64,000 nucleotides of DNA from Aureococcus anophagefferens (Eukaryota; Sar; Pelagophyceae; Pelagomonadales; Pelagomonadaceae). The stretch is from the NCBI RefSeq assembly GCF_000186865.1, contig NW_008705590.1, positions 199,534 to 263,533 on the forward strand, written 5' to 3'. The notes beneath the pieces are model-generated. The model saw only the letters and a program-made list of their open reading frames with translations. It did no database searches and was not told the DNA's origin. Shown here piece by piece: positions 12,931 to 62,773 of this stretch. The position numbers and the translations under genes were made by a program. Positions within the stretch are counted from its first letter, which is position 1, and each line of letters begins with the position of its first letter.

Positions 12931-15065
12931 ATGATCCAGCTCGAGCACTGGGCGCCGACGCCCATCGTCTCGCGGCGCGACCGCCACGCCGCCGAGGTCT
13001 GGAACCCGCACATGGTGAACCGCTTCCCGCCGAAGAAGCCGAACGAGGGCAGCGTCGTCCAGGCGCCCTGGGCGCGGTGCCGCGACAACGTCATCCACCG
13101 CCGCGCGACGCGGCTCGGCGCCGTCGGCGCGCGGCGCGTCGACCCGACGTACCTGCCCGCGCACACGGTCTGCGCCTTCTCCGAGACGGAGCTGGACGCG
13201 TTGCGCGCCATCGGCGGGAGCCTCGCCCACGGCCTCGTCAAGAAGCGGGACGTGAAGCGCCTCATGGCCGCGTGCTTCCCGAACGAGAACGTCGCCGCGG
13301 CCAAGGCGCGCCACTGCGGCCGCGACCTCCACGTGTCCAAGCACCGCCACGGCACGTTCCCGGGCGTCTGCGCCTGGATCGCGACGAGCCGCCTCTCCGT
13401 GAACCGCGCGGCGAAGCACCCGCACAACAACCTGAAGATCCCGCTGCCGCCGTGCTGCGCGAATCCCGCGTGCCGCATCTGCGTCATGTCGCTGTCGCCC
13501 CAGCAGCTCAACGACATGAGCCCCGAGGTGCGCCAGATGTACACCATGTGGCGGTCCCTCGTGGACCACGGCGGCGAGGGCGTGACCTTCAACGGCGTCG
13601 AGGAGTGCCTCGCGAAGCACGGCGTGCCCCTGCCGACGGACGAGGTCGCGGAGGTCTTCGAGCGCTACGACGCGGACGGCTCGAACCATCTCGACTTCGA
13701 CGAGTTCATGGGGCTGCTGGATGATTTACGCGTGGGCGACAAGATCGTGCGCAAGCGCGTCACGGCCTACTCGCTGCCGCCGGAGATCGCCAAGGACTAC
13801 ACGGACGAGGAGGTCGCGCAGCTGGCCCACTCCTTCGGCCTCTACGACGACTCGGGCGACGGCGTCATGGACATGAAGGAGCTCGAGGCGGCCATGGTGT
13901 CCCTGGGCCACTCCCTCGAGGAGCACGAGCTGAAGTTCATGCTGTCCATGGTGTCGATCAGGGCGGGAAAAGGGTGCGACATGCCCAAAGGCTCCTCTCT
14001 CGGCCGCTTTCCACTCGTTTCGGCTGATTCTTGGACGAGCGATCATCTCTCGGAACGGTATCGAAGCGTGGATGCGTTTTGGGGGGGAACGCGCGCCCGC
14101 GGAACACCCCCTTTGAAGCGACGGTGAATCACTCTGTTCCCGCGCAGATCGACACAGACCGGTCGTTCACCGTCGACTTCGGCGAGTTCGCGCAGCTGCT
14201 GAAGCGCATGGTCGACGGCCGGCTCCAGGTCGACGCGTCGCTCATGCACCGCTCCTTTGTCGGCAGCATCGGCGTCGAGCGCCTCAAGGCCGAAGTCGAC
14301 GCGATGCATCACGGCGGGCCCGACGGGTCGTCCGACCTCCCGCCGGGCGTCGCGGAGATCACGCTCCACGCGACGAAGCCCGACCCGACGGTCCAGGCGA
14401 CGTTCCTGGGGGAGGCGCTGCTGGGCACGCCCTACGAGGGCTTCATCCTACGGTTGCAGGTCCAGGCGTCGCCGCGGTACCCGCTCGACGCGCCGCGCGT
14501 CGCGTTCTCGCGGCGCGTCGTCCACGCGAACTTCGACATCGCCATGGCGGGGAACACGCAGCTGCCGCAGCTCATGGCGACCTGGGACGCCGCCAAGGAC
14601 TTGCGGTGGCTCTACGGCCGCATCTACGAACTGCTCCGGAACCCGGAGCCGAATCTCGTGCCGCCGGAGAAGCGGCCCGAGGCCGCGCTCGCGGATTCGG
14701 AGCTCGACGAGGACGGCACGTCGCAGCCGCCGGGCTACGACATGCGCACGAAGCGCAACAGCGACCGCTTCGCCGCGGAGCTGGGGCTGCTCTTCCGCGA
14801 GAAGCCGCGCGTCTACTTCGCGGTCGCGCGGCGCAACGCGAAGAAGTACCTCGAGCCGGACCCCCACGCGTCGCGGCCGACGCGCCTCAACACGCCCGAC
14901 GGGACCGCGGCGCCCCTGCGCCGCGCGCGGGGCGTCGGCACCATGGTCGCGAGCCGCCTCCAGTCCACGGCGAAGCACATGCTCTTCGACGGCCTCAAGG
15001 ACTTCGAGCAGTTCGCCGAGGGCGACGAGGCCGACGAGTTCGGCGGCGAGGAGTCGTCCTGGTAA
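12931..15065 (+). CDS. EF-hand / ubiquitin-E2-variant fusion protein
   Basis: Exons 12931-13950 and 14148-15065, split by an introner, give ~645 residues. After an unrecognised N-terminal third come calmodulin-like EF hands: loops DADGSNHLDFDE (~247), DDSGDGVMDMKE (~305) and DTDRSFTVDFGE (~341, built across the splice junction; Gly-6 is lost). Residues ~380-520 form a UBC fold: RLKAEVDAMHHG, GTPYEGFILRLQVQASPRYP, then WDAAKDLRWLYGRIYELL. The HPN box and catalytic Cys are missing (VHANFDIAMAGNTQLPQL instead), so it should be an inactive E2 variant that binds ubiquitin or an E3 rather than transferring ubiquitin. A basic tail follows. The start is uncertain: the frame is open back to 12751 with coding-like sequence but no in-frame ATG before 12931. 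Confidence 0.72.
13951..14147 (+). mobile_element. Introner, family 1 (197 bp intron, reverse orientation)
   Basis: Phase-0 intron with a GT donor and CAG acceptor. Removing it rebuilds an EF-hand loop exactly (LSM joined to IDTDRSF). The interior matches family 1 in reverse orientation: the shared core CGGCTGATT(C/T)TTGGACGA, then the GC-alternating tract and a diverged TTGAAGCGACGGTGAATCAC end. The inner termini are inverted (GGGCGGGAA / TTCCCGC). Unlike the other copies, the 8 bp flanks are GTGTCGAT on the left and ATCGACAC on the right. These are reverse complements of each other rather than direct repeats. It is also the most diverged copy, so it may be older. Confidence 0.88.
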
Positions 15066-15125
15066 GCTGGGAGCGAATTTTATTTGAGCGACGACGCGAG
15101 TGCGGAGTTACGACGGGGGGGGCTG

Positions 15126-15898
15126 CTAGGGCACGTCCGCGGGGACGGCCGGCGGCGCCTCCGTCTTCGCCTCGCCCTTGCCGGCGCGCTTCTTTTTCCT
15201 CGGTCGGTCCAGGATGCGCGCGGGCTCGATCTCGCCGTCGGCGCCGTCGGCGTTGCCCGGCACGATGAAGTCGCGGAACCGCGCCATGTCGCGCTCGTAC
15301 TCGGCGTCGACGATGATGTTGGGGTAGATGTCGGTCCAGAACTTGACGCGGCCGTAGACCATGATCGCGAAGTCGAGGACGAGGCTCCAGATGGGCACGT
15401 AGTTCCAGCCGACGAGGAAGACGCCGATCGTCAGCGGCAGGTGGAGGATCGCGGCCTCCTTGGCGAGGGGCCAGTAGGCGAGGATCATGCCCATCCAGAG
15501 GCTGTGGGCCAGGATCAGGATCTCGAGCTCGAGCTCCGAGATCTCGTTGTCGATGAGGCTGTGGAGCACGACGAACATGACGACCCACGCGCCGACCTGC
15601 GGACGCGGCGCGCGGTCGGCGCGCGATCGCGCGGCGCGCGGTCCGGACGCGGGTCGCGCACGCCGTTGAGCATCTCGCCCGAGTGGATGATCATCCATCT
15701 GCGGCGGGGGGGGCGCGCGCATCGAGCCGCGGCGCGGCGCGCGCGGCGCGCGGCGCCGGCGGCGCACGCCACGCGGTTGTTCGTCAGGTGCTTGAGCTGC
15801 TTCCGGTCCGTGAACGACAGGTAGTGGTGGAGCGAGAACGGCCCGAAGAGGATCGCTTCGATGTACAAAAAGTACTTGATCGCCGTCGGGATCGCCAT
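15126..15898 (-). CDS. Unknown small multipass membrane protein
   Basis: Three exons (15768-15898, 15662-15698, 15126-15596) separated by 69 and 65 bp GT-AG introns; phases 2 and 0 agree and the middle exon is only 37 bp. The product is 212 residues. Hydrophobic segments include IKYFLYIEAILFGPFSL (start), GAWVVMFVVLHSLI, LAHSLWMGMILAYWPLA, ILHLPLTIGVFLVGWNYV and IWSLVLDFAIMVYG, suggesting four or five membrane helices. A Lys/Arg-rich tail (RPRKKKRAGKGEAK) follows an acidic stretch. I do not recognise the family. The short conserved-looking exon WMIIHSGEMLNG sits between two helices and contains a His/Glu pair that could be functional. Confidence 0.65.
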
Positions 15899-16061
15899 GG
15901 CCGCCGCGCCGACCCGAGGCAGCCTCCGGAGCAGCCCAGAGTGGTGTCCGAAGCAGCGAACTCAATAGAAATTGCCAATGTTGACGTTTTCACGGTAGAT
16001 GCTCGCGATGACGTCGACGACGACGCCCGCCTTCCGAGCGCGCGCGGCGCGGCGACCCCAC

Positions 16062-19077: not shown

Positions 19078-19085
19078 GGGGAAAA

Positions 19086-20088: not shown

Positions 20089-23000
20089 ATGGCGGTCGCG
20101 GCGACGCGCCAATTCAACCGGCTGGTGGACGACGCGAGCGACCCGCGCGTGCTGATCCAGGACGCGATCCACGCCCAGGTGGCGGCGACGCCGGACCGGG
20201 TCGCCGCCGAGTTCCTGGGCGACGGCCGGTCGCTGACCTACGCGGCGCTCGCGGGCGAGGCGGCGGCGCTCGCGGCGCGGCTCTTCGCCCTGGGCGCGGG
20301 CGGGCGCGACGCGCTGGTCGCGCTCCAGGTGGTCAAGAGCGTGGAGATGGTCGCGGCGATCCTGGGCGTCCTCGACGCGGGCGCGGCGTACCTGCCAGGG
20401 CAGGGAAATAGTGACTCAATTTCGCTTCAATATGAGTGTTCCGCGCGCGCGCGTTCCGATCGCACTCTTTTCCTGCCCAGGTACCTGCCGCTCGACCCGA
20501 CGTGGCCCGCGGCGCGGCGCCTCTTCGTCTGCGACGACGCGGCCTGCGGGGCGCTCGTGGTCAACGGCGACGCGGCGGACGACGACGAGGCCGCCGCCGC
20601 GTTCGAATCGCGCGGCCGCCTCGTCGCGCTGGCCGTCGGCGCGGCCGCCGCGGGCCGCGTCGGCGCGGCCGCCGCGGGCCGCGTCGCGTCTGCGCCGCGC
20701 GACAGCGACGCGGACCGCGCGCTGTGCTACGTCATCTACACGAGCGGGTCCACGGGCGCGCCCAAGGGCGTCATGATCGAGCACGCGTCCCTGCGCTGTT
20801 TGATGCGGCACGCGGAGGCGCCGTACCGCAGAGTCCTCGGCGCGTACGAGTCCCGCGCGCCCGAGCGGTGCGCGATCGCCTTCAACTACGTCTTCGACGC
20901 CTTCCAGCAGTCCTACTTCTTCACGTTGGGGCTCTACGGGGGCACGTGCGTCCTCGTCCGCGACGGGCTCGCGCTCCTCGACGTCGGCGACGACCAGGGC
21001 AGCACAAGAGAGCGAAATTCCCAACTTCAAAGGCTCCGATCTCGGCCAGTTTCCACTTGTTTCGGCTGATTTTTGGACGAGCGATCATCTCTCGGAACGG
21101 CCTCGAAGCGTGGATGTTTTTTCCGTAACGCGCGCGCGCGGCACACTCACGTTGAAGCGACGTCGAATCACTCTCGTGCCGCCCAGGCGACGACGCGCGC
21201 GTGACGCTCCTCTACGACGTCGCGTCGGTCCTCGCGCTCTACGAACGCATGCCGGCCTCGGTCAAGCTCGTCCAGCAGGGCGGCGAGGCCATGACCCTCG
21301 GGGTCGTGCGGCACGCGGCGACCAAGGTCCTCTGGAACTGGTACGGGCCTGTGTGCAAATCAACCAGTGAGCTGGGACGTCGGGGCCAAACTTGAGAATT
21401 CTCTAGCTCGGTCAAATCGAAGTCGATTCGGCTGATTTTTGGACGAATCGATTGCTCTCAGCGAGTTCTCGAAGCACGGCGGAAGTGCTCGTGTCAAAAC
21501 ATTCGAATACGCGCACATTGAAGTCGGGTTGAAGATTTGATTTGCACACAGGTACGGGCCGACGGAGGCGACGATCAACGCGACGCGCCGCGACGTGCCG
21601 CTCGGCCTCCGCGGCGCCGCGCTCCGCCTCGACTCGCTGGGCAGGCCCCTGCCGAACGTGCCGTGCTACGTCGTCGACCCGGACGACGGCGCGCTCCTCG
21701 GCGCGGGCCCCTACGGCGAGCTGTGGGTCGGCGGCGTCCAGGCCGCGCGCGGCTACCTGAACCGGCCCGAGCTGACCGCGGACCGCTTCGTCGACGACCC
21801 CTTCCTCCAGCAGGTGCCGGGCGCCTACGTCGGCGCGCCGCGGAGGGCGTACCGGACCGGCGACCGCGTCCGGTGGCTCGGCGACGGCGAGCTCGAGTTC
21901 GGCGGCCGGCTCGACTTCCAGGTGAAGCTCCGCGGCCGCCGCATCGAGCTCGGCGAGATCGAGCACGCGTGCCGCGACGTCGACGGCGTCCTGGACGCGT
22001 GCGTCCTGCTGCGGACGGACGTCGGCGGCGAGCCGCGCCTCGTCGGCTACGTCTGCCCGTCCGCGCGGGCGCCGGCCGTCGCGGCGGCGCTCGAGGCGTC
22101 GTCGCTGCCGGCCTACATGGTCCCCGCGGATGTCGTCGGCGTCGACGCGTGGCCGCGGACGTCGTCGGGCAAGATCGACCGGAGGCGGCTCGCGCCGCCC
22201 GCGCGCGGCGGCGCGCGCGGCGCGAGCGGCGCCGACGCGCTGCTCGACGCTGTCGGCCGCGCCTTCCGCGACGAGCTCAGGCGCGGCGACGTCCCCTGCG
22301 ACGCGCCGTTCTTCGCGCTCGGCGGAAGTTCGCTCGGCGCCGTCCGCGTGCGGTCGCGGCTCGCGCCAGGGCAGGACAAGGGTGATTCAACGTCGCTTCA
22401 ACGTGAGTGTTCCGCGCGCGCGCGTTCTAGAAAAAGCGTCCACGCTTCGATACCGTTCCGAGAGATGATCGCTCGTCCAAAGATCAGCCGAAACGAGTGG
22501 AAAACGGCCGGGATAGGAGCCTTTGAAGTTGGGAATTTCGCTCTCTTGTCCTGCCCAGGCTCGCGCGCGACCTGTCCGCGGCGGTGCCCGCGGATTTCCT
22601 GTTCCGGCACCCCTCCGTCGCCGAGGCCGCCGACGCGCTGCGGTCCGCGGCGCCGCGGCGCCGGACGGGCGCGGCCGCGCGCAACGCGGCCGCCGCGCGG
22701 CGCTACCTCCGCGAGTCGCTCGAGTGGCTCGCGACGCTCGACGCGGCCGAGACCGCCTTCGTGCGCGCCGGCGCGACGGCGCACGCGACGGCGATCCTGG
22801 GCTGGGGCGCGCGCGCGGGCCCGCGGACGCGATTCGGCGCCGGGTGCCGCGTCGGCCCCGGCGCGCTCGTCGGCCACGACACGTCGATCGGCGCCGACGC
22901 GGTCGTCGGCGCCAACTGCTGCTTCGGCGGCAACGTCGTCGTGGAGCCGGGGGCCGTGGTCGAGGACGGCTGCGCGTTCAAGCCGGGCGTCCGCGTAGGA

Positions 23001-24265: not shown

Positions 24266-27200
24266 ATGGCGCGTCCGCGCCCCACGACGCTGCTGCTGGT
24301 CCTCGCGCTGCATCGCGCGCGCGCCGTCACCACGGGCCAGTACGGCATCTGTCCCCGGGGCCACGCGTGCCCCGCGGGCTCGGGCACGCCGCTGCCGTGC
24401 CCGGCGGGGAAGATGAGCTACGCGCTCGGCCTCACGAGCCTGAGCCAGTGCAAGGACTGCACGGCGGGCTTCGTCTGCCCCGAGAGCGGCACGGTCAACG
24501 CGACGGAGCCCTGCGCGCCGGGCTTCTGGTGCCCCGGCGGCGACGCGAGCTCGAATCGGAGCTGCACGCTGGGGCATTACTGCGCGGGCGGCGACCGCGC
24601 GCCCGAGCCCTGCGCCGCGGGGTCCTTCCAGAATACGACGGGCGCCGCGAGCTGCCACGCCTGCACGCCCGGGTCCTACTGCGAGCAGGCCGCCATCTAC
24701 CCGCGCGACTGCCCGGAGGGCTTCTACTGTCCCAAAGAGACGACGTACGCGACGGAGTTCGCGTGCCCCAACGGCACCTACTCGAACCGCACCATGCTCC
24801 GGAGCGTCGACGGCTGCGAGCCCTGCTTCGGCGGCCACTACTGCGAGACCGACGGCCTCGGCTGGCCCACGGGCGAGTGCGCGGGCGGGTATTATTGCGG
24901 CCTCGGCGCGAACGTCGCGACGCCCGACGAGAAGCAGCTCGCGACGAGCATCTACCAGGGCGAGACCTGCGCGGACCAGTCCACGGAGGACGACGCGAAC
25001 GGCGTCTGCCCCCGCGGCCACTACTGCCCCGAGGGGTCGACGTCGCCGACCGCGTGCCCGCCCGGGACGCAGAACGGCGCGCTCGGACGCTTCAACCTCT
25101 CGCACTGCGAGCCCTGCGAGGCGTCGTTCTACTGCCCGGACTCGGGCACGATCGACGCGACGATCCCCTGCGAGCCGGGGTTCTATTGCCCGGGCGGCGA
25201 CGTGCAGCCGACCTTGTTGTGCACGGAGGGCCACTACTGCGCGGGCGGCGACGCGGACCCGGAGCCGTGCGCGCCCGGCACGTTCGCGAACGTCACGGGC
25301 GCGTCCGAATGCGCGGCGTGCCCCATTTCGCATTACTGCGAGCTCGCGACGGTGACGCCCCAGTGGTGCCCGAAGGGCTTCTACTGTCCGCTGCACACGC
25401 AGTACGGCTCGCAGCACCCGTGCCCGAACGGGACCTTCACCAACAGGACGCGGCTGGCCCACGAGGCCGACTGCGAGCCCTGTTCGCCGGGCCACTACTG
25501 CGGCGCGCCGGGCCTGCCGGAGCCCCAGGGGCCCTGCGAGGCGGGCTTCTACTGCGCGCTGGGGTCGGCGACGGCGACGCCCGGCGACGGCGAGTTCGAG
25601 CGCTACCTGGGCGAGACGTGCAACGTCATGCGGCCCTCGGAGACGAACGGCGTCTGCCCCCTGGGGCATTACTGCGAAGAGGGCTCCATCGCGCCGACGC
25701 AGTGCCCCCCGGGCACGGAGAGCAAGGCGCGCGGCCTGCACAACGTCACCGAGTGTCGGCCGTGCACGGCGGGCTACGTCTGCCCCGAATCGGGCACGAT
25801 CAACGCGACGATCCCCTGCCCCGCCAATTTCTCCTGCCCCGGGGGCGACATCGTCGCCACCGTCACCTGCCCGGAGGGCCACTACTGCGCGGGCGGCGAC
25901 GCTGCGCCCGCGCCGTGCGAACCGGGCACGTACCAGAACGCGACGGCCCAGGACTCGTGCCTGGATTGCCCCGCAGGGTTCTACTGCGAGCAGGCCACGG
26001 CTGTCCCCCAGATCTGCCCCAGGGGCTACGCGTGCCCGGCGAAGACGGAGTACGCGACGGCGTTTCCCTGCCCGGACGGTTCGTTCGGCAACGGGACCAT
26101 GCTGAACGGCACCGATCAATGCGAGGCGTGCACGCCGGGGCTCTACTGCAACGAGACGGGTTTGGCGGCGCCCGTGGGCCCCTGCGCGGCGGGCTACTAC
26201 TGCGCGTCGGGCTCGAACACGTCGACGCCCGGCGACGGCGAGCACTGGACCTACGTGGGCGAGACGTGCAACTCGCTGCAGCCCGGCGAGCTCTCGGGCG
26301 TCTGCCCCGTGGGACACTACTGCGAAGAGGGGTCCATCGCGCCGACGCAGTGCCCGCCGGGGACGGAGAGCACCGCGCGGGGCCTGCGCAACGTCTCCGA
26401 GTGCCCGCCGTGCTCCGCGGGCTTCACGTGTCCGAACGCGTCGACGGTCGTCGCCTCCAAGCCCTGCGCGCCGCGGTTCTACTGCCCCGGCGGCGACGTC
26501 GTGCCCACGCTCCTGTGCAGCCCGGGCCACTTCTGCGACGGCGGCGACCCGGCGCCCGCGCCGTGTTTGGCGGGGACGTACCAGGACGCGGAGGGGCAGA
26601 CGGACTGCAAGCTGTGTCCTGCGGGCTATTTCTGCGAGAACGCGACGGTGACGCCGGCGGACTGCCCGCTGGGGAGCTACTGCCCCAACGGGACGCGCTA
26701 CGGCGCCCAATTCCTGTGCCCCGCGGGCACGTACGCGAATCGGTCGCTGGACCAACGGCTCAAGACCGTCGACGAGTGCGACCCCTGCCCGCCGGGCTCC
26801 TACTGCGGGTCCCCGGGGCTCGCCCAACCGACGGGCCCCTGCGAGTCCGGCTACTACTGCGCGTCGGGCTCGACGACCGCGACGCCCGGCGACGGCGACG
26901 ACGACACGTACGTCGGCGAGACGTGCGCGGACCAGAGCGACGCGGAGCTCTCGGGCGTCTGCCCCGTGGGCCACTACTGCGAGGAGGGCTCCATCGCCCC
27001 GACGCAGTGCCCGCCGGGCACGGCGTCGAACGCGCGCGGGTTGCACGCGGAGTCGGAGTGCGCGGCGTGCCCGGGCGGGTTTATTTGCCCCGAGAGCGGC
27101 ATGGTCTCGACGAACCAGACCTGCGCCGTCGGGTTCTATTGCCCCGGCGGCGACGTGATTTCGACGCTGATCTGCCCGCGGGGCCACCAGTGCGAGGCGG

Positions 27201-30200
27201 GCACCGCGGAGCCCGTGCCGTGTCCTCTGGGCACGTACAACAACGCGACGGGCGCCACCACGTGCGCGGACTGCCCCGCGGGCGCCTTCTGCCCCGTCGG
27301 GGCCGAGGAGATCGTGCTGTGCCCCCGGGGCTACTACTGCCCGCCGCTGACGGGCTTGGGCGTCGATAACCCCTGCCCGGCGGGCACGTACGATCCCGCG
27401 CGCGCGGGCCTCGGCGGATCGTACGACAACTACACGGGCTTGAAGGAATTGTCGGACTGTACGCCGTGCTCCCCGGGCATGTACTGCGGCGAGGCGGCGT
27501 TGTACCGGCCGTCGGGCATCTGCGAGGAGGGCTTCTTCTGCGCGGCCGGCGCCGCGTCGCCGACGCCGGGGATCAACGACACCTGGGTCTACAACGGCGA
27601 GACGTGCAACGACGCCCTCGACGTCAACGGCACGAACGGCGTCTGCCCGCCGGGCCACTGGTGCCCGTCGAACTGCTCGGCGCCGGAGCAGTGCCCGCCG
27701 GGCACCATGTCGACGGCCCGGGGCCTGCGGAACGCGTCCGAGTGCCTGCCGTGCGAGCCGGGCTTCGTCTGCGACACGGCGGCCATCGTCTACCCCACCG
27801 TGCCCTGCGACCCGGGGTTTTACTGCCCCGGCGGCGACGCCACGGCGACCTTGGTCTGTTTGGCGGGCCACAGCTGCCCCGGCGGCAACGCGGTGCCGAC
27901 GGACTGCGTCGCGGGCACGTACGGCCCACCGAGAATCTCGCGGCGTGCCCCGCGTGCCCCGCGGGCTACTGGTGCCCCGCGGGGTCCATCACGCCGGACC
28001 CCTGCGTGGAGGGGTACTACTGCCCCGAAGGCACGCGCTTCGCCCAGCAGTACCCGTGCCCGCCGGGGAGCTTCTCGACGGGGACGATGTTGGAAGCGGC
28101 GTCTGAATGCACTTCCTCTCCGCCGGGCACGTACTCGCAGGCCTCGGGCCTCACGGCGCCCGAGGGTTTGTGCGGGCCGGGCCACTACTGCGCCCTGGGG
28201 GCGACGAGCCCCCAGCCCGACGGCTCCGACGCGACGGGCGGGCTCTGCGCCGCGGGGTCCGTCTGCGTCGGCGCGGCCCAAGTCCCGAACCCGGACGGCG
28301 TCGACAGCAGCGGCTACCCCTGCCCGCCGGGCCACTACTGCCCCGAGGGCAGCGAGCACGAGGTCGGCTGCGCGCCGGGCACCTACCAGCCCTCGAGCGG
28401 CCAGGGCAGCTGCCTCGTCTGCCCCGCGGGCAAGGTCTGCCGCGGCAACACGACGGTCCCCGAGGACTGCCCGCTGCAGCGCTACTGCGAGGCCGGCTCG
28501 GGCGCCGGCGTGTTGTGCCCCGCCGGGTCCTGGGGCCACGAGACGGCCTTAGAGACGGCATCGGACTGCGCGGCCTGCCCCGCGTCCATGTACTGCGTCG
28601 ACGGGAACGTCACGGGCGAATGCGCGGCGGGCCACTTCTGCCGCAGCGGCGCGGGCTCCGCGACGCCGACGCGCGACGTCGCCGTCGAGGACAAGATGAT
28701 CTACGACGCCAGCGTCTGGTCCGTCTTCACGAACGGCCAGTGCCCGCCGGGGCACTACTGTCCCAAGGCGTCGCCGGATCCCGTTTTATGCACGAACGCG
28801 ACGTGGCGCAACTGGACGCACGCGTCGAGCGTCGACGACTGCGCGCCCTGCCCCGAGGGCTACGAGTGCGTGCCCGGCGACCCCGTGCCCATCCCCTGCC
28901 CCCGGGGCGCCTACTCGCCCCTGGGCTTCGACCCCATCCCCTGCCCGCGCTACACGTACAACAGCGACCTCGCGCAGTACGCGGAGGAGCACTGCAAACC
29001 CTGCCCCGCGGGCGCCTTCTGCGAGTACCCGGGCACGGCCTACCACCAGCAGTACCCCTGCCCCGAGGGCCACTACTGCCTCGAGAAGAGCGACGGCCCC
29101 ATCGAATGCCCGGGGGGCTACTACCAGCCGGAGCTGCGGGCGACGAACCAGACGGCGTGCCTCGGCTGCCCCGCGGACTCGTTCTGCGGGCCCGGGAGCG
29201 GCATCCCCGTGCACTGCGCGGACCCGCGCGGTGAGATCGGCTACTACTGCCCGAAATATTCCGCGAACCGCACGATCTGCCCCGCGGGCCAGTACTGCCC
29301 CGCGGGCGACTCGTACCGCGGCGGCTTCCCCTTCGACTGCCCGGCGGGCTATTACTGCCCCCAGGGGTCGCTGGCGCCGAAGCTCTGCCCCAACGGCACC
29401 TACTGCCCGCCCATGTCCGGCGAGTACCGCTGGTGCCCCCTGGGCTACAAGAACAAGGTCGACGCGAACAACTCGCGGACGTCCGTCGCCGACTCGTGCG
29501 AGGTCTGCCCGCCGGGCACGCACGGCGCGGACCCGAAGCGCCTCGAGTGCGCCGAGTGCCTCCCGGGCTACGTCTGCCTCGGGGAGACGCGGTCCGCGAC
29601 GCCGTCGGACCGCTGGCTCGACAGGGGCTACGAGTGCCCCGCGGGGAGCTACTGCCCCTCCGGGTCCACCATAGAAACGCAGTGCGCGCCCGGGTCGTCG
29701 AACCCGCTGACGGGCTCGTCGAACGCGTCGGCCTGCGTCCTCTGCAACGTCGACGCCTACCAGGACATGGCGGGCCAGGCCTACTGCAAGGAGTGCTCGT
29801 CGACGTCCAAGGCCGTCGGCCTCGGCAACGCGCGGTGCGCGTGCGTGGGCCTGAACCGCGCGTTCCAGAGCAGCGGCCTCTGCCCCTGCGACCCGGGCTA
29901 CGTCTGGTTCGACCCCGTGACCTTCAAGTCGGCGACGACGAACGACGCGTCCGACTGCCAGCCCGAGGTCTACGAGCGGTGCTCCGACGAGAACATGCGC
30001 GACCACCTCGGCCAGTGCACGGAGGAGGACGACTGCTCCGGCCAGTGCGGCGCGTCCGGCGGGGAAAGAGACACGCAGAGCGGGCTCTGCGTGTGTTACG
30101 GCATGCAGCAGCTCGACGAGGAGTGCGACCAGGCCTGCCGCGATTCTTCCGACACCGTGTCCTACGACGCGTCGCTCGGCAGTTTCGTGACCACGGACGC

Positions 30201-33200
30201 GAACGGCACGTCCGTCGCCGTGCCGACGTCCGACTTGGACGGCTACTACGGCGACGTCGTCTGCAACACGGACGACTGCGAGGTCCAGTCCATGTCCGTG
30301 TCGTCGACGTCCTTCGCGGGCAACTACGGCTCCGGCGCGGCGCTCCGCGAGGCGCGGCGGCGCCGGCGGCGTTTGGAGGCGCTCGGCGTCGACCCGGACT
30401 CGGAGTCGCTGCGGCGGCGGCGCCACCTCGCCGAGGACGCGCGACGGCGGGCGACGAGCGCGCACGCCTGGCGGACGAACGAGACCCTGGCGGACCACTC
30501 GCGGCGCGTGCTCCACGAGGCGCTCCTGTCGACGTCGCGCGTCTTAGAGGACGCCGAGGACGACGCGTCGATCTCGAACCCCGTGGTCTGCGTGACCCTG
30601 GGGTCGACGATCCTCTTCGACGTGTCGAACGCCTACTACCCGACCTACGAGTCGTCGTCGCTGCTCAACAGCAACGCGGACTTTGACTACTCGGCGTTCA
30701 CGTCGCTCGCGGAGACGGCGAGCTCGAGCGCGACGGTGAGCTCCTTCGCGTTCACGTTCACGGAGTCGGGGCTCTACGTCTTCTCCATGTCCGCGGCGTC
30801 CGACGTGTTAACGCTCATCAAGGTCATGGACGAGGGCACGGAGTGCTCGACGGAGGCCGCGTTCACGCCGATGACGTCGGCGAACCTCAACGCCGTCGGC
30901 GGCAAGCTCTCCGACGACATCGTGCTGGACCCGGACTGGGAGGTGCTGGGCGGGCTGCTGGGCGGGTTGTCGTTGATGATCTTCGGGGTCATCGGCGCGA
31001 TCTATTATTTCCGGAAGCAGGCCTGGAGCATCAAGACGAAGAAGGGCGCGCGGTACCGCGACCGCGCGAAGCACGCGGACCTCGACAAGCACGCGAAGAA
31101 GGGCGCGGTCTTCCGCAAGGGCGGCGAGGCGTCCGACGGCCCGCCGCTGCGGCCGGGCGCGGGCGGCGCGCGCGATTTGGACGAGGACGACGAGGACCTC
31201 GAGGATTTGGACGAGGAGGAGCTCGCGCGCCAGCTCCAGCGGCACCACGACCTCGTGGAGCAGGAGTTCTTCGGCCAGCGCGAGCTCGTGCGCCAGCTCC
31301 ACGAGGCCGTGACCCACGAGGCCGACGAGCTCAAGCGGCTCGTCGCCGCGTCGCTCGCGGACCACGCGTCGCCGAACAAGGCCAAGGAGGCGCTCCACAT
31401 GCTGCTCCACGGGTCGACGGCGCGGCGGCTCCACGACGGCGCCGCCGCGGGCGCCGAGGCCGAGGTCTTCCGCCTCGCGAGCCAGCTCGCGGTGCTGCTC
31501 GAGGAGGGCGGCGACCGCATGGCGCGCCGCGTCGTCGAGGAGGTCCGCGAGGCGACGGAGGTCGCTTTAGAGGAGCGCGGCGCCGTGCCCGAGAGCGACA
31601 CGCTGCGGCGCGTGCGCGGCGAGGTCGACGCGCTCGTGCGGGTCATCCACGACCAGCTCGTCGCCGGCACGGACGCGGAGCTCCGGCGGCGCCAGAATTA
31701 TAAGGCCGCCTTCGAGGCCTTCGCGGAGGCGCACGGCGACGTCGTGCTGCCCGTGAACGTCGTCGAGAAGATCAAGACGCTCGACGGCTTCGACGACGCG
31801 ACGGACGCGGCCGCGCACCATCTGGCGGAGGTGCTGGCGGAGTTCGAGGGCCGCGGCGGCCACTTTGTGGCCGCGCTCGCGAAGCGGGAGCGCCAGCTCG
31901 CGGCGGACCTCGCGCCGCCGCTCAGCGAGGGCGCGAACGGCGTCCTCGCCTGCGAGCAGGTGAAGCTCGGCGGCGTCGAGACCTTCGCGGACCTCCTGGA
32001 CCAGTTAGCGGCCGCTCTGAGGGCCATCTTCGGCGGCTTCGCGGGCGGCGACGCCGCGGAGCTCCGGCGCAACGCGGCCGCGGCGAAGCGCGACGAGGCC
32101 GAGGCCGCGCGCGCGGACCTCGACGCGGCCGTCCGCGCGGCGCTCGACGACCTGCCGCAGGACGCGAAGCTCGACGAGGTCCAGAACCAGCTCCGCGCGA
32201 TTCTGGAGAAGCTGTCGGGCCAGCCGGGCGGCGCGACGTCCGACCAGATCAAGGACATGATGGACGAGCTGCAGAAGCGGCCCGTGGGGTCGCCGCGCGA
32301 GGCCCACCACGAGATCGACGACGTCCACGCCATCGCCGAGGAGCACATGAAGGTGCTCGAGCAGGGCCTCGACGAGCGCCTCGGCCACGAGGTCGGCAAG
32401 ACGGACCTCGCCGACAAGGACCAGCACATCATGGAGGAGGCCATCGCGGCCTCGAAGGCCGAGGCGGCCCACATGCTCGAGCGCGAGAAGCAGCTCCACT
32501 CCTTCCGCCTCGCGGAGCTCGGCGCGCTCGAGGACCTCGACGAGGACGCCGAGGCCATCCTCGCCGAGAAGCACGCGGCGGAGAGCGCCGCGCTCGAGGA
32601 GCGCCTCGCCGTCGCGGCGGCGGCGGCCGCCGCGGGCGACGACGGCGACGGCGACGGCGACGACGCCGACGAGCCGGACTCGCCGCGCGGCGTCGAAGTT
32701 TCTACGGACGGCGCGCACAACGTGTCGCCCGAGGAGGTCGCGGAGGCCGACGCGCGCGCGGTGCGCGCGGTGCACCAGCGCGATTTAGCTGCTCTGAAGA
32801 GCCACCTCGCCGAGGAGGCCGCGCACAAGAAGGCCGCGCTCCAGCGGCGCCTGGCGGAGCTCCGCGCCAAACGCCTCGCGGCGGGCGACGCGGAGGCCGC
32901 CGTCGCCGCGGACGAGGACGCGGAGACGCGGGCCCTCGCGGCGGCTCTGGCGGACGAGGAGGCGCGCGAGATCGCCGCCGCGGAGTCGGAGCACGCGGAG
33001 CACCTCACTCAGCTCTACGAGGGCGAGAGCGCGGCCGCGTTGGAAGCCGCGCACGCGAAGGAGCACGCGACCGTGAGCCGCCAGCTCGACGCCCAGGCGG
33101 AGCGCGCGCGCGCGGACCTGGAGACGCGCATCGCGCCGCGGCGCCGCGGGCGGAAGAAGCGCGACGTCGAGGACGACCTCGAGCAGAAGAAGAAGGCCGC

Positions 33201-36200
33201 GCTCGACGCGCTCGCGGCGAACCACGGCGCGGAGCAGACCCACATGGCGGCGTCGAACGCGCTCAAGGACCAGCTCGGCGCGTCGCCCGCCGCGGACGCC
33301 GAGGCCGAGCGCCACCTCGCCGCGCGGAAGCTGCACCACGACGCCGCGGGCGAGCGGGCGGGCCTCGACGCGTCGCTCGACGCGGAGCGCCGCGCCAAGG
33401 AGCTGGCGTTGAAGGCGCGATTGGCGGCGCGGCGCCGCGCCGCCGAGCTCGACAAGGCCCACGCGGACGCCGTCGCCGACGAGTCGGAGCGTTTGGCCGA
33501 CGCCGCGCGCGACCGCGCGGACGCGGACCCCGACGACGTCGATTTGCAGCTCGCGGCCCAGGCGGCGGAGCTCAAGGCGGAGCAGGCCGACGCCGCAGCC
33601 ACGAAAGCCCGCGACGCCCTGGAGGCGCTCGACGACGCCGACGGAAACGACGAGGACGCGCTCGCCGCGGAGCTCGCGAAGAGCGCCAACGCCGCGCGCG
33701 CCAAGCTCGACGGCGACCTCGACGCGGAGCGGCGCCGGCGCCAGGCGGCCCTGCGCGCGCGCCTCGAGGCGAAGAAGCGCGCCGCGGAGAACGCCGCGCG
33801 CCAGGCCAAGCTCGCGGCCGACGACGCCGCGCGCGGCGCCGCGGAGCACCCGGACGACGAGTCTTTGAAACGGATGGCCGACGACCTCAAGGCCGACGCC
33901 GAGCGCGCGGCCGCCGACGCCACGGCCGTCGGCGACGTCTTAGCGAAGCTCGACGACGACGAGGCGGCGGCGAACCTCCACGGCGAGGACGACCTCCGGA
34001 GCGGCGCGGCCGCGCTAAGAGACGCGCAGGCCGAGGAGCGCGCGGCCCTCGAGGCCAAGCTTTTGGCGGAACAGGAGCGCAAGCAGGCGGCCTTAGCCGC
34101 CCGCCTCGACGCGCGGCGCAAGCGCGCGGAGCAGGACCTCGCGGCCGCGAAGGCGCGGGCCGACGCCGCCGACGCCAAAGCGGCGCTCGCGGCGACGGAC
34201 GCGGAGGTCTGGAAGGGCACGGACGACGAGGCCGCGCACCTTTTGGAGCTCGACGAGGCGCGCCAGGCCGCCGCCGACGCGCGCGGCGACGTCGCCGCCG
34301 CCGAGGCGGCCGTCGCGGGTTTGGGCGACGACGCGGACGACGCGGAACGCGACCTCGCGGCGGAACTCCGCGCGGCCCGGGACCGCGAGATGGCGCGGCT
34401 GGACGCCGCTCTAGAGGCGGAGCGCCGCGCGAAGCGGGACGCGCTGAAGGCGCGTTTGGAGGCGCGGCGGAAGCGCGCCGCCGAGGACGCGGCGGCGAAG
34501 CGCGAGGACCTGTCGCACGCCAAGGAGGCCGCGGCCGCGGGCGACGGCGACGCGGCCGCGGACGTCGCCGAGCTCGAGCGGGCCGTCGCCGACGCCGAGG
34601 ATGACGTCAAGGCGCTCGAGAAGGAGATCGACGGCGTCGACGTGGACCTCGCGGCCATGGTTGCGGCGAGGGAGGCCGAACAGACGCGGCTCCGCGAGCG
34701 GCTCGAGGCGGACCGCGCGGCCAAAAGAAAGGCCCTGGAGGCGCGGCTCGCCGCGAAGAAGCAGGCCGCCGCCGAGAAGCAGGCGGCCTACGCGGCTCTG
34801 GTCAAGGATCAAGCGGATGCCGTGCCTGGTTCTCCGGAAGAGCAAGCGCTCAAGGACCGCGCCGAGGTCGCGCGCCACGACGTCGAGGCCACGAAGGCCG
34901 CGGTCAAGGGCGCCGAAAAGGCGTTGGAGGCCGTCGACGACGGGGGGCTCCGCGAGCGGACCGCGGCCGACACCGCGGAGCTCGAGGCGCGGCTGGACGC
35001 GGAGCGGCGCGCGAAGCGCGACGGTCTGCGGGACCGCCTCGCGAAGCGCAAGAAGGCCGCCGCCGACGCCAAGGCCGCCGCCGCCGCGCTCGGGAAGAGC
35101 GCGTCGACGCCCGAGGAGCGGGCGCGGGCCGCCGAGGCCGCCGCGGACGCGGACGACCAGGTCGCGGCCGTCGCGGAACTCGAGCAGGAGCTCGTCGAGC
35201 AGGAGGCCGTGGACTTGGAAGCCATGCGACGGGCGCGGGAGCTGGAACGGCAGAAGCTCGAGGACGACCTGAGCCACGACCGCTCGAAGCGCAAGGACGC
35301 GCTGAAGGCGCGCCTGGAGGCGCGGCGGCGCCAGGCCGAGCTCGAGCGCGCGAACAAGGAGGCCAAGGCCCTCGCGGCGCGCCAGGACGCCGACGCCGCC
35401 GCCGAGGCCGGCGACGCGGGCGCCGCCGAGGCCGTCGCCAAGGCCGACGCGCTCGAGCAGCAGGCCGCGGAAGCGTCGGCGGCCGTCGTCGCCGTCGAGC
35501 AGGAGATGGCCGAGGCCGACGACGGCGGCGACGACGACGAGGCGCGCCGGCGCGCCGAGGAGCTGCGGAAATTGCGCGACGCCGAGCTGGAGCGGGTCCG
35601 CAAGGCCATGGAGGACGACCACGCGGGCGCGTCGTCGTCGCTGAAGGCGCGGCTGGAGGCCCGACGAGCGAAGGCGAAGGCGGACGCCGAACGCAAGGCG
35701 TCCGACGCCGCCGACGCCCGCGAGCGGGCCGAACTCGCCAAGGACACGCTCGAGGACCACAAGGGCACGGAGGCCGAGGCGACGCTCGCGCGCGCCGCCG
35801 CGAGCGCCGAGGCCGAAGCGAAAGCGATGAGCGCCGCGGCGGATCACGCCGCGGTCGCGCTCGCGGATCAGGAGAAGGACGACGAGGAGGCCCTGCGCCG
35901 CCAGGCCGAGGAGCTCGCGCGGCGCCGCGACGAGGAGCTGCGCCGCTTGGAGGCCCGGGCCGACGCGGAGCGCGCGCGCAAGAAGGACGCGCTCTCCGCG
36001 CGGCTCAGCGCGAAGCGGAAGCTCGCCGAGATGGACGCCGCCGCCAAGGCCGACGCGGCCCGCGAGGCCAGCGATCGCGCCAAGACGGCGCGCGAGCTCG
36101 CGGAGAAGAGTCGCGGCACGCCGCTGGAGGCATCGACGCGCGAGCAGGCGGACATGGCCGAGGCGTACGCGGACGCGGCGAGTGACGCCGCGTCGGCGGC

Positions 36201-42200: not shown

Positions 42201-43489
42201 CGACCACATCGAGACGTTGGTGTCCCAGCTCGCGACGGCCCAGGCCGAGCTCGCCGCGCGGCCACCGGCCGCGGGCGCGGCGCCGGCTCCCGCGCAACCG
42301 CCGACGTACCAGGACGCCGAGGACCCGCGGCCGCCAGGGCAGCAAAATGGTGATTCAACGTCGCTTCAACGTGAGTGTTCCGCGCGCGCGCGTTTCGGAA
42401 ACAGCACCCACGCTTCGAGGCCGTTCCGAGAGATGATCGCTCGTCCAAAAATCAGCCGAAACGAGCGAAAAACGACCGAGATAGGAGCTTTGAAGTTGGG
42501 AATTTCGCACCCTTTTGCTGCCCAGGCGGCCCCAGCCCGCGCTCGTCGCCGTCGACGCGGCGGACCTGAGCGCGGGCAAGCGCAAGCGCTTCGAGTTCGG
42601 CGAGAAGCTCCTGGCCATGCTCGGCGTCGGCGACTCGCTGTCCCTGAAGGTCGCGGAGAGCCTGCCGCCGAACGGTCTCCGGGGCAACGCGTTCCGCAAC
42701 TCCTACGCCTACGACCCGGAGCGCGCCGAGCTCCACCTCCACCTCAAGCGCCTCGGCACCTTTGGGGACGTGAGCCTCGTGCTCCTCCACGCCGTGTCCC
42801 ACATCAAGGCCAACGCGGCGGACCTGGGAGACGACAGCTCCCCGGCGTTCGTCGCGGAATTCCACCGCAACTTCAAGGTCGTCACGGGCGAGCTCGCCAA
42901 GGCCGAGGCCGCGGCGGAGACCAAGGCCGCCGCGCCTTCGGCGCCCGCGGCGGCGGCCCCGGCGACGCCGCGGACCGCGGCCGCGCGCGCGGCCGCCGCA
43001 CCGCCCGCGGCGCTCCCCGCGGCCGCGGCCGCGGCCGCGCCCCACTTCGCGCCCGTGGCCCTCAACGACCGCCTCGCGCAGTACGCGGCGGCGGCGAACA
43101 ACGCGGACTTTGGCGCGCTCATGGAGCGCTACGCCGCGGAGGCGGACAAGCCCGAGAATACGGTGTCCAAGCTCGAGGCCGCGGAGCAGTCGAGCGAGCG
43201 CCAGCTCGAGGACGAGCGCGCGGCCGCCGCGGCCAAGGAGAAGGACGACCTCAAGCGCCGCATCGCCGAGCGCCGCGCGCGCGCCGCCGGCGGCTCGCCC
43301 GCCAAGGCCCAGGCGACCGTCGACGTCGCGCCCGCGGACCACGCCGCCGTGCCCGCGGCGCGCGCGACGCTGACCCGGGCCCAGGAGTCGAGCTACGCGC
43401 TCGACGCCGCCCACGCCCAGGCCGCGGCCAAGGAGAAGGACGACCTCAAGCGCCGCATCGCCGAGCGCCGCGCGCGCAAGGGGGCGTAA
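24266..43489 (+). CDS. Giant type-I membrane protein: Cys-rich repeat ectodomain, one TM helix, long coiled-coil tail
   Basis: Nine exons, ~5,900 residues: 24266-36621, 36708-36952, 37005-~37355, 37571-37744, 37945ish-38447, 38659-39199, 39397-40073, 40275-42326, 42526-43489; phases agree at the introner junctions, while the introns near 36.6-37.9 kb are less certain. A signal peptide (MARPRPTTLLLVLALHRARA) precedes ~2,000 residues of GCC2/GCC3-type (TNFR/ephrin-receptor-like) Cys-rich modules such as CPPGTESKARGL and FYCPGGD, with many N-glycosylation sequons. A small beta-rich region follows, then one TM helix near residue 2225 (LGGLLGGLSLMIFGVIGAIYYF) and a basic stop-transfer. The cytosolic ~3,650 residues are Ala/Glu/Lys/Asp-rich coiled coil built from ~90-119-residue repeats (KARLEARRKRA). 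The frame shifts once near 27925. Probably a surface or cell-covering protein linked to an internal scaffold (inference). Confidence 0.82.
24330..27900 (+). repeat. ~650 bp tandem repeats of the Cys-rich ectodomain
   Basis: About five and a half copies of a ~217-residue unit. Each starts with a (V/I)CPxGHYC-like block near 24345, 25008, 25652, 26301, 26961 and 27645. Within a unit the order is fixed: CPPGT + ARGL block, FYCPGGD block, GHYCAGGD block, GTY/N-T-G block, CP-T-YG block, N-x-T sequon, PC-GYYC, and TPGDGE/GETC. Units 2-5 are most alike, with EEGSIAPTQCPPGT repeated nearly verbatim, which points to recent in-gene duplication. Confidence 0.88.
27915..27930 (+). other. Apparent one-base frameshift in the giant gene
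   Basis: Upstream the Cys-rich repeats read in one frame to VAGTYGP; from ACCGAGAATCTC onward they continue as TENLAACPACPAGYWC in the frame one base earlier. No GT-AG or GC-AG pair of plausible size fits the change of frame, and the repeat consensus continues with no residues missing. A single-base deletion, real or an assembly error, is the simplest explanation. Confidence 0.8.
36622..36707 (+). other. Intron of the giant gene (86 bp)
   Basis: Phase 0, GT donor and TAG acceptor; it contains in-frame stops. It carries an internal direct repeat GACAACTCCATCT near both ends. It lacks the introner ends and target duplication. A GC donor at 36610, also phase 0, is an alternative. Confidence 0.6.
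36953..37004 (+). other. Intron of the giant gene (52 bp)
   Basis: Donor GTACGT, acceptor GCGCAG, phase 2 on both sides; splicing gives AAAEKLATALAAE. One of several minimal introns (44-57 bp) in the window. Confidence 0.65.
37356..37570 (+). other. Intron with tRNA-like sequence and 29 bp tandem repeat
   Basis: This interval interrupts the coiled-coil frame with uncharacteristic sequence; the acceptor is CCCCGCAG at 37570 and the donor is either GC at 37356 or GT at 37374, both phase 2. It contains TCGAGGTGGTAGAG (37391-37404, box-A-like) and a perfect pol III box B, GGTTCGAATCC (37430-37440), at normal tRNA spacing, plus a possible 4-5 bp anticodon stem. The T stem is imperfect, so this is a tRNA relic or SINE-like piece, not a functional tRNA. 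Two perfect 29 bp copies follow (37441-37469 and 37470-37498), and a second box-B-like GGTTCGAACCG lies near 37510. Confidence 0.55.
37745..37943 (+). other. Probable intron of the giant gene (199 bp), possibly a decayed introner
   Basis: Phase 2 on both sides with a GT donor and TAG acceptor. The length is close to the 200 bp introners and the flanks are partly duplicated (GTCCGTGA / GTCCGGGT). The interior shows no introner family sequence. An alternative pairing, 37743 with 37959 (phase 0), also keeps the frame. Confidence 0.5.
38448..38658 (+). mobile_element. Introner, family 2 (211 bp)
   Basis: Phase 2, GC donor from the perfect 8 bp duplication GCTCGAGG. Terminal inverted repeat CTGTGTGGAAATCAA at both ends; the copy at 21341 has C instead of G at the eighth base, also at both ends. 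Splicing gives AAELEDLGVAG in the coiled-coil tail. Same length and internal order as the other family-2 copy. Confidence 0.95.
39200..39396 (+). mobile_element. Introner, family 1 (197 bp, forward orientation)
   Basis: Phase 0, GC donor. The right flank is GCGTCGAA while the left keeps GCGAA, as if three bases of the left duplication had been lost; restoring them would give the 200 bp family length. The interior matches 22359-22558 closely. Splicing gives EKAASKREAIL. Confidence 0.9.
40074..40274 (+). mobile_element. Introner, family 1 (201 bp, reverse orientation)
   Basis: Phase 2, GT donor from the perfect 8 bp duplication GTCGATGA; ends CAGGGCAGGACAA and TTGTCCTGCCCAG. Reverse interior orientation. 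Splicing gives RSRRSSMNKKLQE. Confidence 0.95.
42327..42525 (+). mobile_element. Introner, family 1 (199 bp, forward orientation)
   Basis: Phase 2, GC donor. Duplication GCGGCCGC/GCGGCCCC with one mismatch. Ends CAGGGCAGCAAAA and TTTTGCTGCCCAG. Splicing joins DPRP to a conserved-looking segment beginning RPQPALVAVDAADLS. Confidence 0.95.
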
Positions 43490-59020: not shown

Positions 59021-59082
59021 CGCGCGAGGCGCGCCAATGTACACACAGCCGCACCCACGCTTAATGTAAGAGCCACACCCCC

Positions 59083-61408: not shown

Positions 61409-61544
61409 CGTGCGACGAGATCCGCGATGGCGGCGACGACGGCGAGAACAGGGCTGCCACGAGAAGGCAGTTTCTGAGGCGCCAAGAAGCCTTCAACGTG
61501 ATGAACTTGAAGTGGATCGTTGAGAGAACGACTCTGGGTTGGGG

Positions 61545-62773
61545 TCACAGCGCGTCGTTACCGCCGCGCGCGCGGCCCCGGTCGTCGCGCGCGAGGAGGT
61601 CCCCGAGGGGGTCCTCGGCGCGGATCTTGCCGTCGAGCATGTCCTGGACGGAGAACTGGGACTTGAACTTGTCGCTCGACTCGAGGAACTTCTGCATCAC
61701 GGCGTCGTCGACGTCCATGCCGTCGTCGCGCGTCCAGTCGACGTCGCCGACGAGCGCGCCCGCGGTCTCCGCGGCCGCGGCCTCGCGCGCGCGGCGGTCG
61801 CGCGCGGCCGCGCGGGCCGCGCGGAAGGCGGCGACCTTGGCGCGGAGGCGCAGGGGCGACGTGAAGCGCCAGGGCGCGGGCTCGGCGAGCACGGAGAGCG
61901 CGTCGCCGTCGGGCTTCCGGTCGACCTGGGCAGCAAAAGGGTGCGAAATTCCCAACTTCAAAGGCTCCTATCTCGGTCGTTTTCCGCTCGTTTCGGCTGA
62001 TTTTTGGACGAGCGATCATCTCTCGGAGCGCTCTCGAAGCATAGGTGCTGTTTCCGAAACGCGCGCGCGCGGAACGCTCACGTTGAAGCGACGTTGAATC
62101 ACCCTTGTGCTGCCCTCCGGTCGACGATCACGAGGACGTCGGTCGCGAGGTACATGACGACGAGGTCGCGGGCCCGCGGTGGCGCGAGGCGCGGCAGGGG
62201 CAGCGTCAGGCCGAACACCCGGACGTACATGCCGCCCCAGAAGCGGGGCGCGAGCGCGAGCGTCGCCGAGTCCCGCGGCGACCCGTCGGCGGCCGCGCCG
62301 AACGCGAGGAGCGGCCCGAGCACGCGCGCCTCGCGCTCGACGACGAGGCCGCCGGTCCGCGCGCTCGGCCGGAAGCGCGCGAACGTCGGGAAGAGTCGCC
62401 GCAGGGGCAGCAGCTCCTCCCAGGCCCCCTGGCCCGCGAGCAGCGTCGAGCTCGACCGGTCGGTGACGCCGTTGTTCGTCGCGACGAGCACGTCGATGTC
62501 GCGGCCGATGGCGCCGAGCGACGCCGCGGCGTCGGCCCGCCGCAGCGCGCCGACGACCCGCTCCTCGATGCCCACGACCTTGTCCTGGACGCGGTTCAGG
62601 CGCAGCTGGCCGCTGATCCACGTCTCGTAGTCCGCGTCGCTCGCCGCCTCGAGGCCGCCGACGGGCCGCTCGGCGCACTGCGGGCCGAGCCGCGGCGCCG
62701 GCGACCGCGGCGCCGTGTAGGCCGCGGCGCAGGCCGCGAAAGAAACCGCGGCCAAGCGCGAAATTCTCGCCAT
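61545..62773 (-). CDS. Plastid PAP/fibrillin-like protein (tentative)
   Basis: Two exons (62126-62773 and 61545-61925) split by an introner, 342 residues. The N-terminus MARISRLAAVSFAACAAAYT is a signal peptide followed by a basic Pro-rich region. The central part (~60-230) has alternating helices and strands that loosely match plastid lipid-associated (PAP/fibrillin) proteins: LRLNRVQDKVVGIEERVV, then RFRPSARTGGLVV, and the strand MYLATDVLVIVDRKPDG, which would correspond to the PAP Y-L-D-x-D-L-R-I-x-R-G end. The C-terminal ~110 residues are Ala/Arg/Asp-rich with SDKFKSQFSVQDMLDGKI. The family assignment is weak; the gene structure is strong. Confidence 0.6.
61926..62125 (-). mobile_element. 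Introner, family 1 (200 bp, forward relative to its gene)
   Basis: Phase-0 intron on the minus strand with a GT donor from the perfect 9 bp duplication GTCGACCGG. Ends (minus strand) AGGGCAGCACAAGGG and CCTTTTGCTGCCCAG. The interior is the same as the forward copies in the plus-strand genes. Splicing gives VLVIVDRKPDG. The only family member here in a minus-strand gene. Confidence 0.95.

Follow-up and report, generated by a model that had tools for sequence, protein, structure and literature searches.

Introners are among the few processes that have been caught making introns genome-wide, and those of Aureococcus anophagefferens were reportedly described by Huff, Zilberman and Roy in Nature in 2016. 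The introners of Micromonas duplicate 3 bp, and their sequence is not known to be related to the two families, A and B, considered here. They resemble ours as introns that spread as repeated elements, in sense and in transcribed regions, in the available text of PMC3879977. For A. anophagefferens itself, introners that derive from DNA transposons and bear direct repeats and TIRs have been published (PMC7789003, PMC9860276, PMC10228655, as excerpted), so the initial annotation, which had pointed to introners in Aureococcus, the host of this DNA, was apt in doing so; the intron-making phenomenon in this alga is already known. Because introners are a rare genome-scale case, it is useful for testing to have a clean set of them side by side in one contiguous assembly. 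The published introners, to which ours are likened by description and not by consensus, come from the same species and are about 210 bp long in the accessible parts of PMC9860276, PMC10228655, PMC9481584 and PMC7789003, and the features shared in those parts are direct repeats with TIRs of constant length, splice-site co-option and insertion in both orientations. The Aureococcus MAG introners (Gozashti et al. 2022, Fig. 2F, PMC9860276, in the portion available) share the genus and an 8-bp duplication; in contrast, they carry both splice sites and add 12 bp to the transcript, whereas the ten introners described below add nothing.

In the window, the whole 64,000-nucleotide stretch of A. anophagefferens DNA analysed here, all ten segments previously proposed as introners of two families, in four unrelated genes and on both strands, are present:

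13951-14147, plus strand: family A introner with beta-first interior; EF-hand gene as host; donor GT and acceptor CAG.
20388-20480, plus strand: family A introner shortened to 93 bp by an internal deletion; AMP-binding (NRPS-like) gene as host; duplication GTACCTGC (8/8); the joined flanks read GAAYLPLDP.
20987-21186, plus strand: family A introner, beta-first; duplication GCGACGAC (8/8); GC donor.
21341-21551, plus strand: family B introner; duplication GTACGGGC (8/8); GT donor; the joined flanks read NWYGPTE.
22359-22558, plus strand: family A introner, alpha-first; duplication GCTCGCGC (8/8); GC donor.
38448-38658, plus strand: family B introner, in a gene coiled-coil-like by eye; duplication GCTCGAGG (8/8); GC donor.
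39197-39396, plus strand: family A introner, alpha-first, with diverged left end; duplication 6/8 (GCAGCGAA / GCGTCGAA); GC donor.
40074-40274, plus strand: family A introner, beta-first; duplication GTCGATGA (8/8); GT donor.
42327-42525, plus strand: family A introner, alpha-first; duplication 7/8 (GCGGCCGC / GCGGCCCC); GC donor.
61926-62125, minus strand: family A introner, alpha-first; host gene also on the minus strand; duplication GTCGACCG (8/8); GT donor.

Family A accounts for eight (about 200 bp, the 93-bp deletion copy among them) and family B for two (211 bp); when the window was compared by BLAST with the fetched loci, no eleventh copy of either family appeared. The four host genes carry near-identical introns, and within one gene the interiors of the 20987 and 22359 copies are opposite in orientation. 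Nine of the starts given in the initial annotation stand; the tenth, placed there at 39200, moves to a best start of 39197 with a 6/8 duplication. Flanking repeats of 8-9 bp had been claimed at most sites, which holds for most of them, at a length of 8 bp, the longer repeats arising from extra neighbouring bases: seven duplications are perfect (8/8), one is 7/8, one 6/8 and one inverted. The count of five GT and five GC donors is borne out, and the acceptor is CAG in 10/10.

We are highly confident that these are MITE introners of A. anophagefferens with a donor made by the duplication and an acceptor made by the element. Short non-autonomous DNA transposons (MITEs) with TIRs would insert into genes with an 8-bp duplication, whose left copy would become the donor (GT or GC); the 3' end of the element, a pyrimidine-rich inverted repeat ending in CAG, would serve as polypyrimidine tract and acceptor. 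With the donor taken from the duplication and CAG from the element, splicing should restore the mRNA exactly. The genome-wide search that the initial annotation had proposed, run here with end patterns, gave matches far above chance: 1,610 for family A in the 49-Mb genome vs 0 for the reversed control, and 1,399 for family B vs 1. Among family A copies with both ends read (n=72), the duplication was 8/8 in 60, 7/8 in 6 and lower in 6; in family B (n=36; six end matches without a partner end are left out of the duplication count) it was 8/8 in 24 and 7/8 in 6. Genome-wide, 260 exact copies share one polarity, and in 258 of them the duplication begins with G; the mirror polarity has 2 genome-wide violators at this base, counted without a total. 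These figures agree with the earlier proposal that the target duplication makes the donor and the element's own end the CAG, and at the level of sequence they support one splice site coming from the element and the other from the duplication. GY is likewise kept in 70 of the 71 family A copies of known polarity in the fetched sample (31/31 and 39/40). Of the two exceptions among the 260 copies, one, L104, reads as a 9-bp repeat beginning GT. Counting against the MITE reading, L103 has C at duplication position 1 and L077 has no alignable duplication. Beyond GY, no consensus is visible in the donor at +3 to +6.

So nearly absolute a rule could also reflect target choice instead of selection, the element inserting at GY in a fixed polarity or into transcribed sense strands. 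This would be compatible with the MITE origin set out above. Besides the rule itself, a sign of some such preference is that non-coding copies are almost absent from the sample though about 30% of 240-bp stretches fail to score as coding; random insertion plus selection leaves that near-absence unexplained, so that gene-targeted insertion must be added. As an account of the GY rule itself, however, we consider target choice unlikely, since the dinucleotides among the 100 copies listed of the first polarity (57 GT, 42 GC and 1 GA) give a GT:GC ratio of 57:42 vs about 0.32:1 window-wide, which looks like selection for splicing. A GY-only donor in which GC is about as common as GT, with misfits nearly absent among the exact copies counted, is a possible quantitative addition to the description of these introners.

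The coding context was scored with a strand-aware model, as a model trained regardless of strand gave ambiguous scores. Strand scoring took 101 copies, of which 8 fitting both or neither strand were set aside; only copies with at least a 6/8 duplication match entered the coding and arm-pairing sets (70 family A copies in the arm set), which leaves out 13951 and L077, and the 20388 copy is absent from the family A sample because its interior is deleted. The sense strand scored as coding at 89 of the 93 orientable junctions, none was confidently antisense and four were weak (three sense, one antisense), an excess with P ~4e-10 over a background coding rate of 0.69-0.70. Sampled copies that are almost only coding and sense would suit a spread through RNA, in which the excised intron is reverse-spliced, reverse transcribed and recombined, as proposed for the Micromonas introners in 2013; a coding and sense bias in Micromonas was indeed read as a transcription- or splicing-linked process in the available part of PMC3879977. 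Here such a route is very improbable, because the locus-specific 8-bp duplications, present at most sites, and paired TIRs mark DNA transposition and reverse splicing predicts neither, and because the family A interior occurs either way round within sense introns.

For the MITE reading, joining the flanks (120 bp on either side) leaves the best coding frame open at 10/10 window junctions, in keeping with the earlier claim that every junction restores frame and often a known motif. The motifs rebuilt on joining are GAAYLPLDP and NWYGPTEA, which we take to be adenylation-domain motifs and the second of which contains the NWYGPTE named beforehand, and MLSM joined to IDTDRSFTVDFGEF. Against it stands the duplication at 13951, where a direct repeat is absent (2/8 match) and the left 8-mer GTGTCGAT matches the right 8-mer, ATCGACAC, exactly once reverse-complemented. 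In its favour at this site, the A. anophagefferens protein SO694_00006557 (a database annotation, not RNA) is 100% identical across this junction, and in two relatives, P0075 and P0076 (76% and 72% protein identity), the same stretch is uninterrupted. The initial annotation had held that orthologues carrying the same segments without any empty site would speak against it; at the one site examined, 13951, the segment is missing in both relatives and their empty site joins the same residues as the predicted splice. Near-identical ORF fragments also occur there, P0077 starting inside the last bases of the 13951 intron and P0078 running into it. The database protein, the empty site and the open frames lend indirect support to splicing in transcripts. 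That the segments are unspliced repeats within genes or an annotation artefact has a negligible probability, for although the 20388 copy, at 93 bp a multiple of three without an in-frame stop, could be read through in frame, so that its splicing is not proven by frame alone, the length is not divisible by three in eight of the ten segments and in-frame stops occur in seven, yet joining gives an open frame in every case and the relatives' empty site agrees with the predicted splice.

While the body of family A lies either way round, its outermost bases, CA...AG, keep one direction with respect to the gene, and none of the 70 family A copies reads CT...AG or CA...TG. A tentative reading, which we think has perhaps one chance in three, is that splice polarity is set by these outermost bases and not by the body, the body being inverted between the arms, or the arms exchanged, with the tips fixed. 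On average the two arms fall short of perfect pairing at 0.97 of 14 positions (3-16; n=70), and they covary at position 9, paired in 66/70 copies (shuffled 35), and at position 11, paired in 63/70 (shuffled 36); such agreement between arms, at variable positions whose bases are in other respects reassorted from copy to copy, would be explained by repeated arm-to-arm exchange. On the interior tree, polarity changes 7 times (bootstrap 6-9, shuffled 23), but just 2 of these changes are required by branches with good support; one clade per polarity is not rejected by the AU test (p 0.096), and two quicker trees give 5 and 9 changes. If the tips are indeed fixed, one acceptor-creating change serves both body orientations, and one base at the outer end of the inverted repeat can be what gives a transposon its ability to make introns. 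A family A body that lies either way round between splice-site tips that keep their direction is a further possible addition and possibly new; neither this nor the near-absolute donor rule appears in the accessible portions of PMC9860276, PMC10228655, PMC9481584 and PMC7789003.

The putative mobiliser is a hAT-like transposase. Duplications made by hAT elements are 8 bp long. The hAT element Buster1 has the inverted repeat CAGGGCTTC... in the excerpt of PMC4298943, and the family A elements resemble hAT MITEs in their 8-bp duplication and in an inverted repeat that starts with CAGGGC as Buster1 does; they differ in that one end is CCCAG instead of CCCTG and in that no hAT transposase was found. 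The acceptor may have arisen when an ordinary inverted repeat, CAGGGC...GCCCTG, changed at a single base from CCCTG to CCCAG, and a 0.5-kb cousin, L079, has the perfect repeat CAGGGCAG...CTGCCCTG with an 8-bp duplication. A pattern for an autonomous partner (the inverted repeat with any but the two known subterminal sequences, which by design leaves roughly one in four of the possible subterminal sequences uncovered) matched 11 places vs 8 in the reversed control. Only L070 and L079 represent another element that has both repeats, a MITE of 0.5 kb judged by size; L076 and L077 resemble variant A copies, L078 looks like a diverged A copy and L071 like an A copy with an insert, and the remaining five are probably chance. 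This limited end-pattern search found no long element or transposase with family A ends. The hAT profile PF05699 had no match, and its control likewise matched nowhere. Family B starts with CTGTG and was matched to no hAT end.

Exact family B ends differ at position 2 in 92 cases (mostly with C, some with G or A) and at position 4 in 95 (nearly always with C). We set aside the idea that selection keeps the family B acceptor from pairing, as the variants may descend from few source copies; three CAG-left family B copies had been chosen for carrying CAG and hence are unused as evidence. In euglenid nonconventional introns an RNA stem can bring the intron ends together, but these introns lack conserved borders in the available text of PMC6221363 and PMC4770533, whereas here GY...AG is strictly kept. 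Predicted folds of our introners do pair the arms, but definition of the splice sites by an RNA hairpin is at most an idea, since the one family A copy folded was no more stable than its shuffles (z -0.64) and covariation at DNA ends can stem from transposition. One family B copy, folded in the same way, gave z -3.04 against shuffles.

We read the ten introner segments of the window directly and fixed their borders, and they fall into the two families of the initial annotation: eight are family A, with inverted repeats CAGGGCAGSAMAAGGG... / ...CCCTTKTSCTGCCCAG, and two are family B, with CTGTGTGSAAATCAA... / ...TTGATTTSCACACAG. Most are indeed flanked by a direct repeat as annotated, the 8-bp target duplication matching at 8/8 positions in seven copies, at 7/8 in one, at 6/8 in one and at 2/8 in the copy starting at 13951. 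The donor counts also agree, with GT in five introns and GC in five, and the element's own end supplies CAG at the 3' end of all ten. Joining the flanks leaves the reading frame open in 10/10 cases, as had been claimed. An in-frame stop lies inside seven of the introns and the length is not divisible by three in eight; only the intron at 20388 has neither property. The window observation is correct and well read; its surprise value is moderate to low, and the phenomenon is already known in this species.

The abstract of Huff et al. 2016 reportedly describes a splice site co-opted from the duplicated sequence. The annotation's mention of DNA-transposon introners in Aureococcus matches the published record for A. 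anophagefferens (PMC7789003, PMC9860276, PMC10228655). These sources describe direct repeats together with inverted repeats of constant length (PMC7789003), insertion between nucleosomes (PMC9860276, PMC10228655) and, in an account of Huff et al. 2016, both the co-option of splice sites and insertion in either orientation (PMC10228655); a length of about 210 bp is given in a further source (PMC9481584).

A genome-wide search, run over a 49-Mb assembly of 86 contigs, returned 810 forward and 800 reverse matches to the 33-base end pattern of family A at up to three mismatches (reversed control, 0). The 17-base end pattern of family B gave 718 and 681 matches at one mismatch (controls, 0 and 1), where two similar ends per element make the copy number lower than the match number. 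Both ends were read in 72 copies of family A, and the duplication matched at 8/8 in 60 of them, at 7/8 in six and at fewer positions in six; among 36 family B copies the figures were 24 at 8/8 and six at 7/8, and in two of the remainder the duplication is displaced by a one-base insertion.

That the duplication itself supplies the donor holds well beyond the window. In genome-wide copies with exact ends and CA before the alpha end, the first duplication base was G in 258 and another base in two. One exception (locus L104) can alternatively be read as a 9-bp repeat starting with GT; the other is a family A copy at about 1510-1698 of locus L103, whose 8-bp duplication starts with C and which alone, of the 260 exact copies with this polarity, clearly breaks the rule. 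In the mirror polarity the first base broke the rule in two exact copies only, from an uncounted total. When polarity was assigned from end bases alone in the fetched family A sample, a GT or GC donor was found in 31/31 and 39/40 copies, the misfit being at locus L077. The 100 G-starting copies listed comprised 57 GT, 42 GC and 1 GA. None of these counts presupposed GT or GC in orienting the copies. In a further set of 98 copies, drawn from the two families and oriented by requiring GT or GC, so that the first two columns are fixed by construction, GC donors (58) exceeded GT (40). Neither the 100 listed copies nor the 98 oriented ones showed a donor consensus at duplication positions 3-6 beyond a G+C-rich composition.

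To place the junctions on coding strands, we used a codon model built from 116 long frames, which called the strand correctly for 99.5% of 600 training pieces. With eight of 101 copies impossible to orient and set aside, 89 of 93 junctions scored as coding on the sense strand, three as weakly sense and one as weakly antisense. This is not explained by chance, since sliding 240-base stretches scored as coding in 69% of the window and in 588/840 cases in the locus flanks (P ~4e-10; 8e-7 at 77%, the window share under a laxer threshold). The comparison is mildly circular, the training frames coming from the same loci, and the copies had been oriented beforehand by requiring GT or GC and AG.

The polarity pattern of family A deserves a specialist's look. 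With 70 copies turned to end in AG where possible and the left base unconstrained, the 3' end in gene direction was AG in all 70, and the left start was CA in 58, CG in nine and CC, GA and GC in one each, with no CT; 32 of these copies had the body alpha-first and 38 had it beta-first. Position 2 is unpaired between the arms in every copy (0/70 Watson-Crick), the only such position within 1-18. At arm positions 9 and 11 the base varies but is paired with the other arm in 66/70 and 63/70 copies (shuffled means, 35 and 36). Polarity clusters on trees of the interior, with seven changes (bootstrap 6-9; shuffled 23) compared with 15-16 for arm positions 9 and 11, and nearest neighbours share polarity in 67/72 cases. 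Point mutations would have to make two changes to switch polarity, and CA...TG or CT...AG intermediates would be expected to remain; the 70 copies contain none. A single step would do if the body were inverted between its two arms, or if whole arms were exchanged. Evidence against plain inversion comes from column 186: it lies just inside the beta arm and varies with polarity, a pattern for which arm exchange would account. Two old mirror-image lineages, one clade per polarity, would also be enough, and an AU test did not reject them (p 0.096). A literature search, with most subscription papers outside its coverage, returned no title or abstract start recognisable as body inversion in introners.

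The acceptor may have a simple origin. A rare 0.5-kb MITE with the perfect repeat CAGGGCAG...CTGCCCTG lies at 1499-2000 of locus L079, with a second copy, lacking a matching duplication, at locus L070; it is likely a non-introner cousin of family A. The introner differs from it at the last-but-one base, CCCAG against CCCTG. Pyrimidines already predominate in the inverted repeat read outward (0.77 over the 17 bases that precede CAG), and one change therefore suffices to make an acceptor. If the 0.5-kb element keeps the older end form, as we infer, a CCCTG-to-CCCAG change at the repeat tip would create it, the direction of change being an assumption.

An empty site, whose absence from orthologous genes the annotation named as refuting its reading, is found at 13951, the one of the ten sites compared in relatives. 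The A. anophagefferens protein has ...KFMLSM|IDTDRSFTVDFGEF there, and the predicted proteins of two relatives (76% and 72% identical across the aligned stretch) have ...MLSL|IDTDRSFTVDFGEF, lacking the segment and with no insertion or deletion; their frames are probably genuinely unspliced, judging from short contigs. Two near-identical predicted fragments have the form expected of gene calls made without splicing on natural DNA of A. anophagefferens: P0077 begins within the last intron bases and continues into exon 2, and P0078 is exon 1 running on into the intron. P0078 has MASI in place of the window's MVSI; judged by these protein letters, the donor of its natural allele seems to be GC, against GT in the window.

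At this same intron, the 8-mers at 13951-13958 and 14148-14155 are exact reverse complements, exactly where a direct copy is expected. Had ATCGACAC been copied directly, the donor would be AT; a small inversion that flipped the left 8-mer, for example by template switching in repair, would have given GT. This inverted duplication stays a curiosity: it was seen once in 108 copies (72 from family A and 36 from family B), its core, TCGA, is its own reverse complement, and with the GC allele the inverted match would be 7/8.

The spliced EF-hand protein matches SO694_00006557 of A. anophagefferens with 100% identity across 460 residues, and an unbroken 891-codon frame of the window matches hypothetical protein JL720_1398 of the same species (780 identities in 862 columns, 76 of them gaps); these matches assign the window to A. 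anophagefferens or a strain very close to it. Elsewhere in the window, imperfect coding repeats spaced at about 650 bp occupy 24339-27961, with a 158-bp segment present six times and a 176-bp segment four times; by eye, the host protein appears cysteine-rich. An unbroken stop-to-stop frame of 3,126 codons, coding-like in composition and free of family A and B copies, spans 27370-36747.
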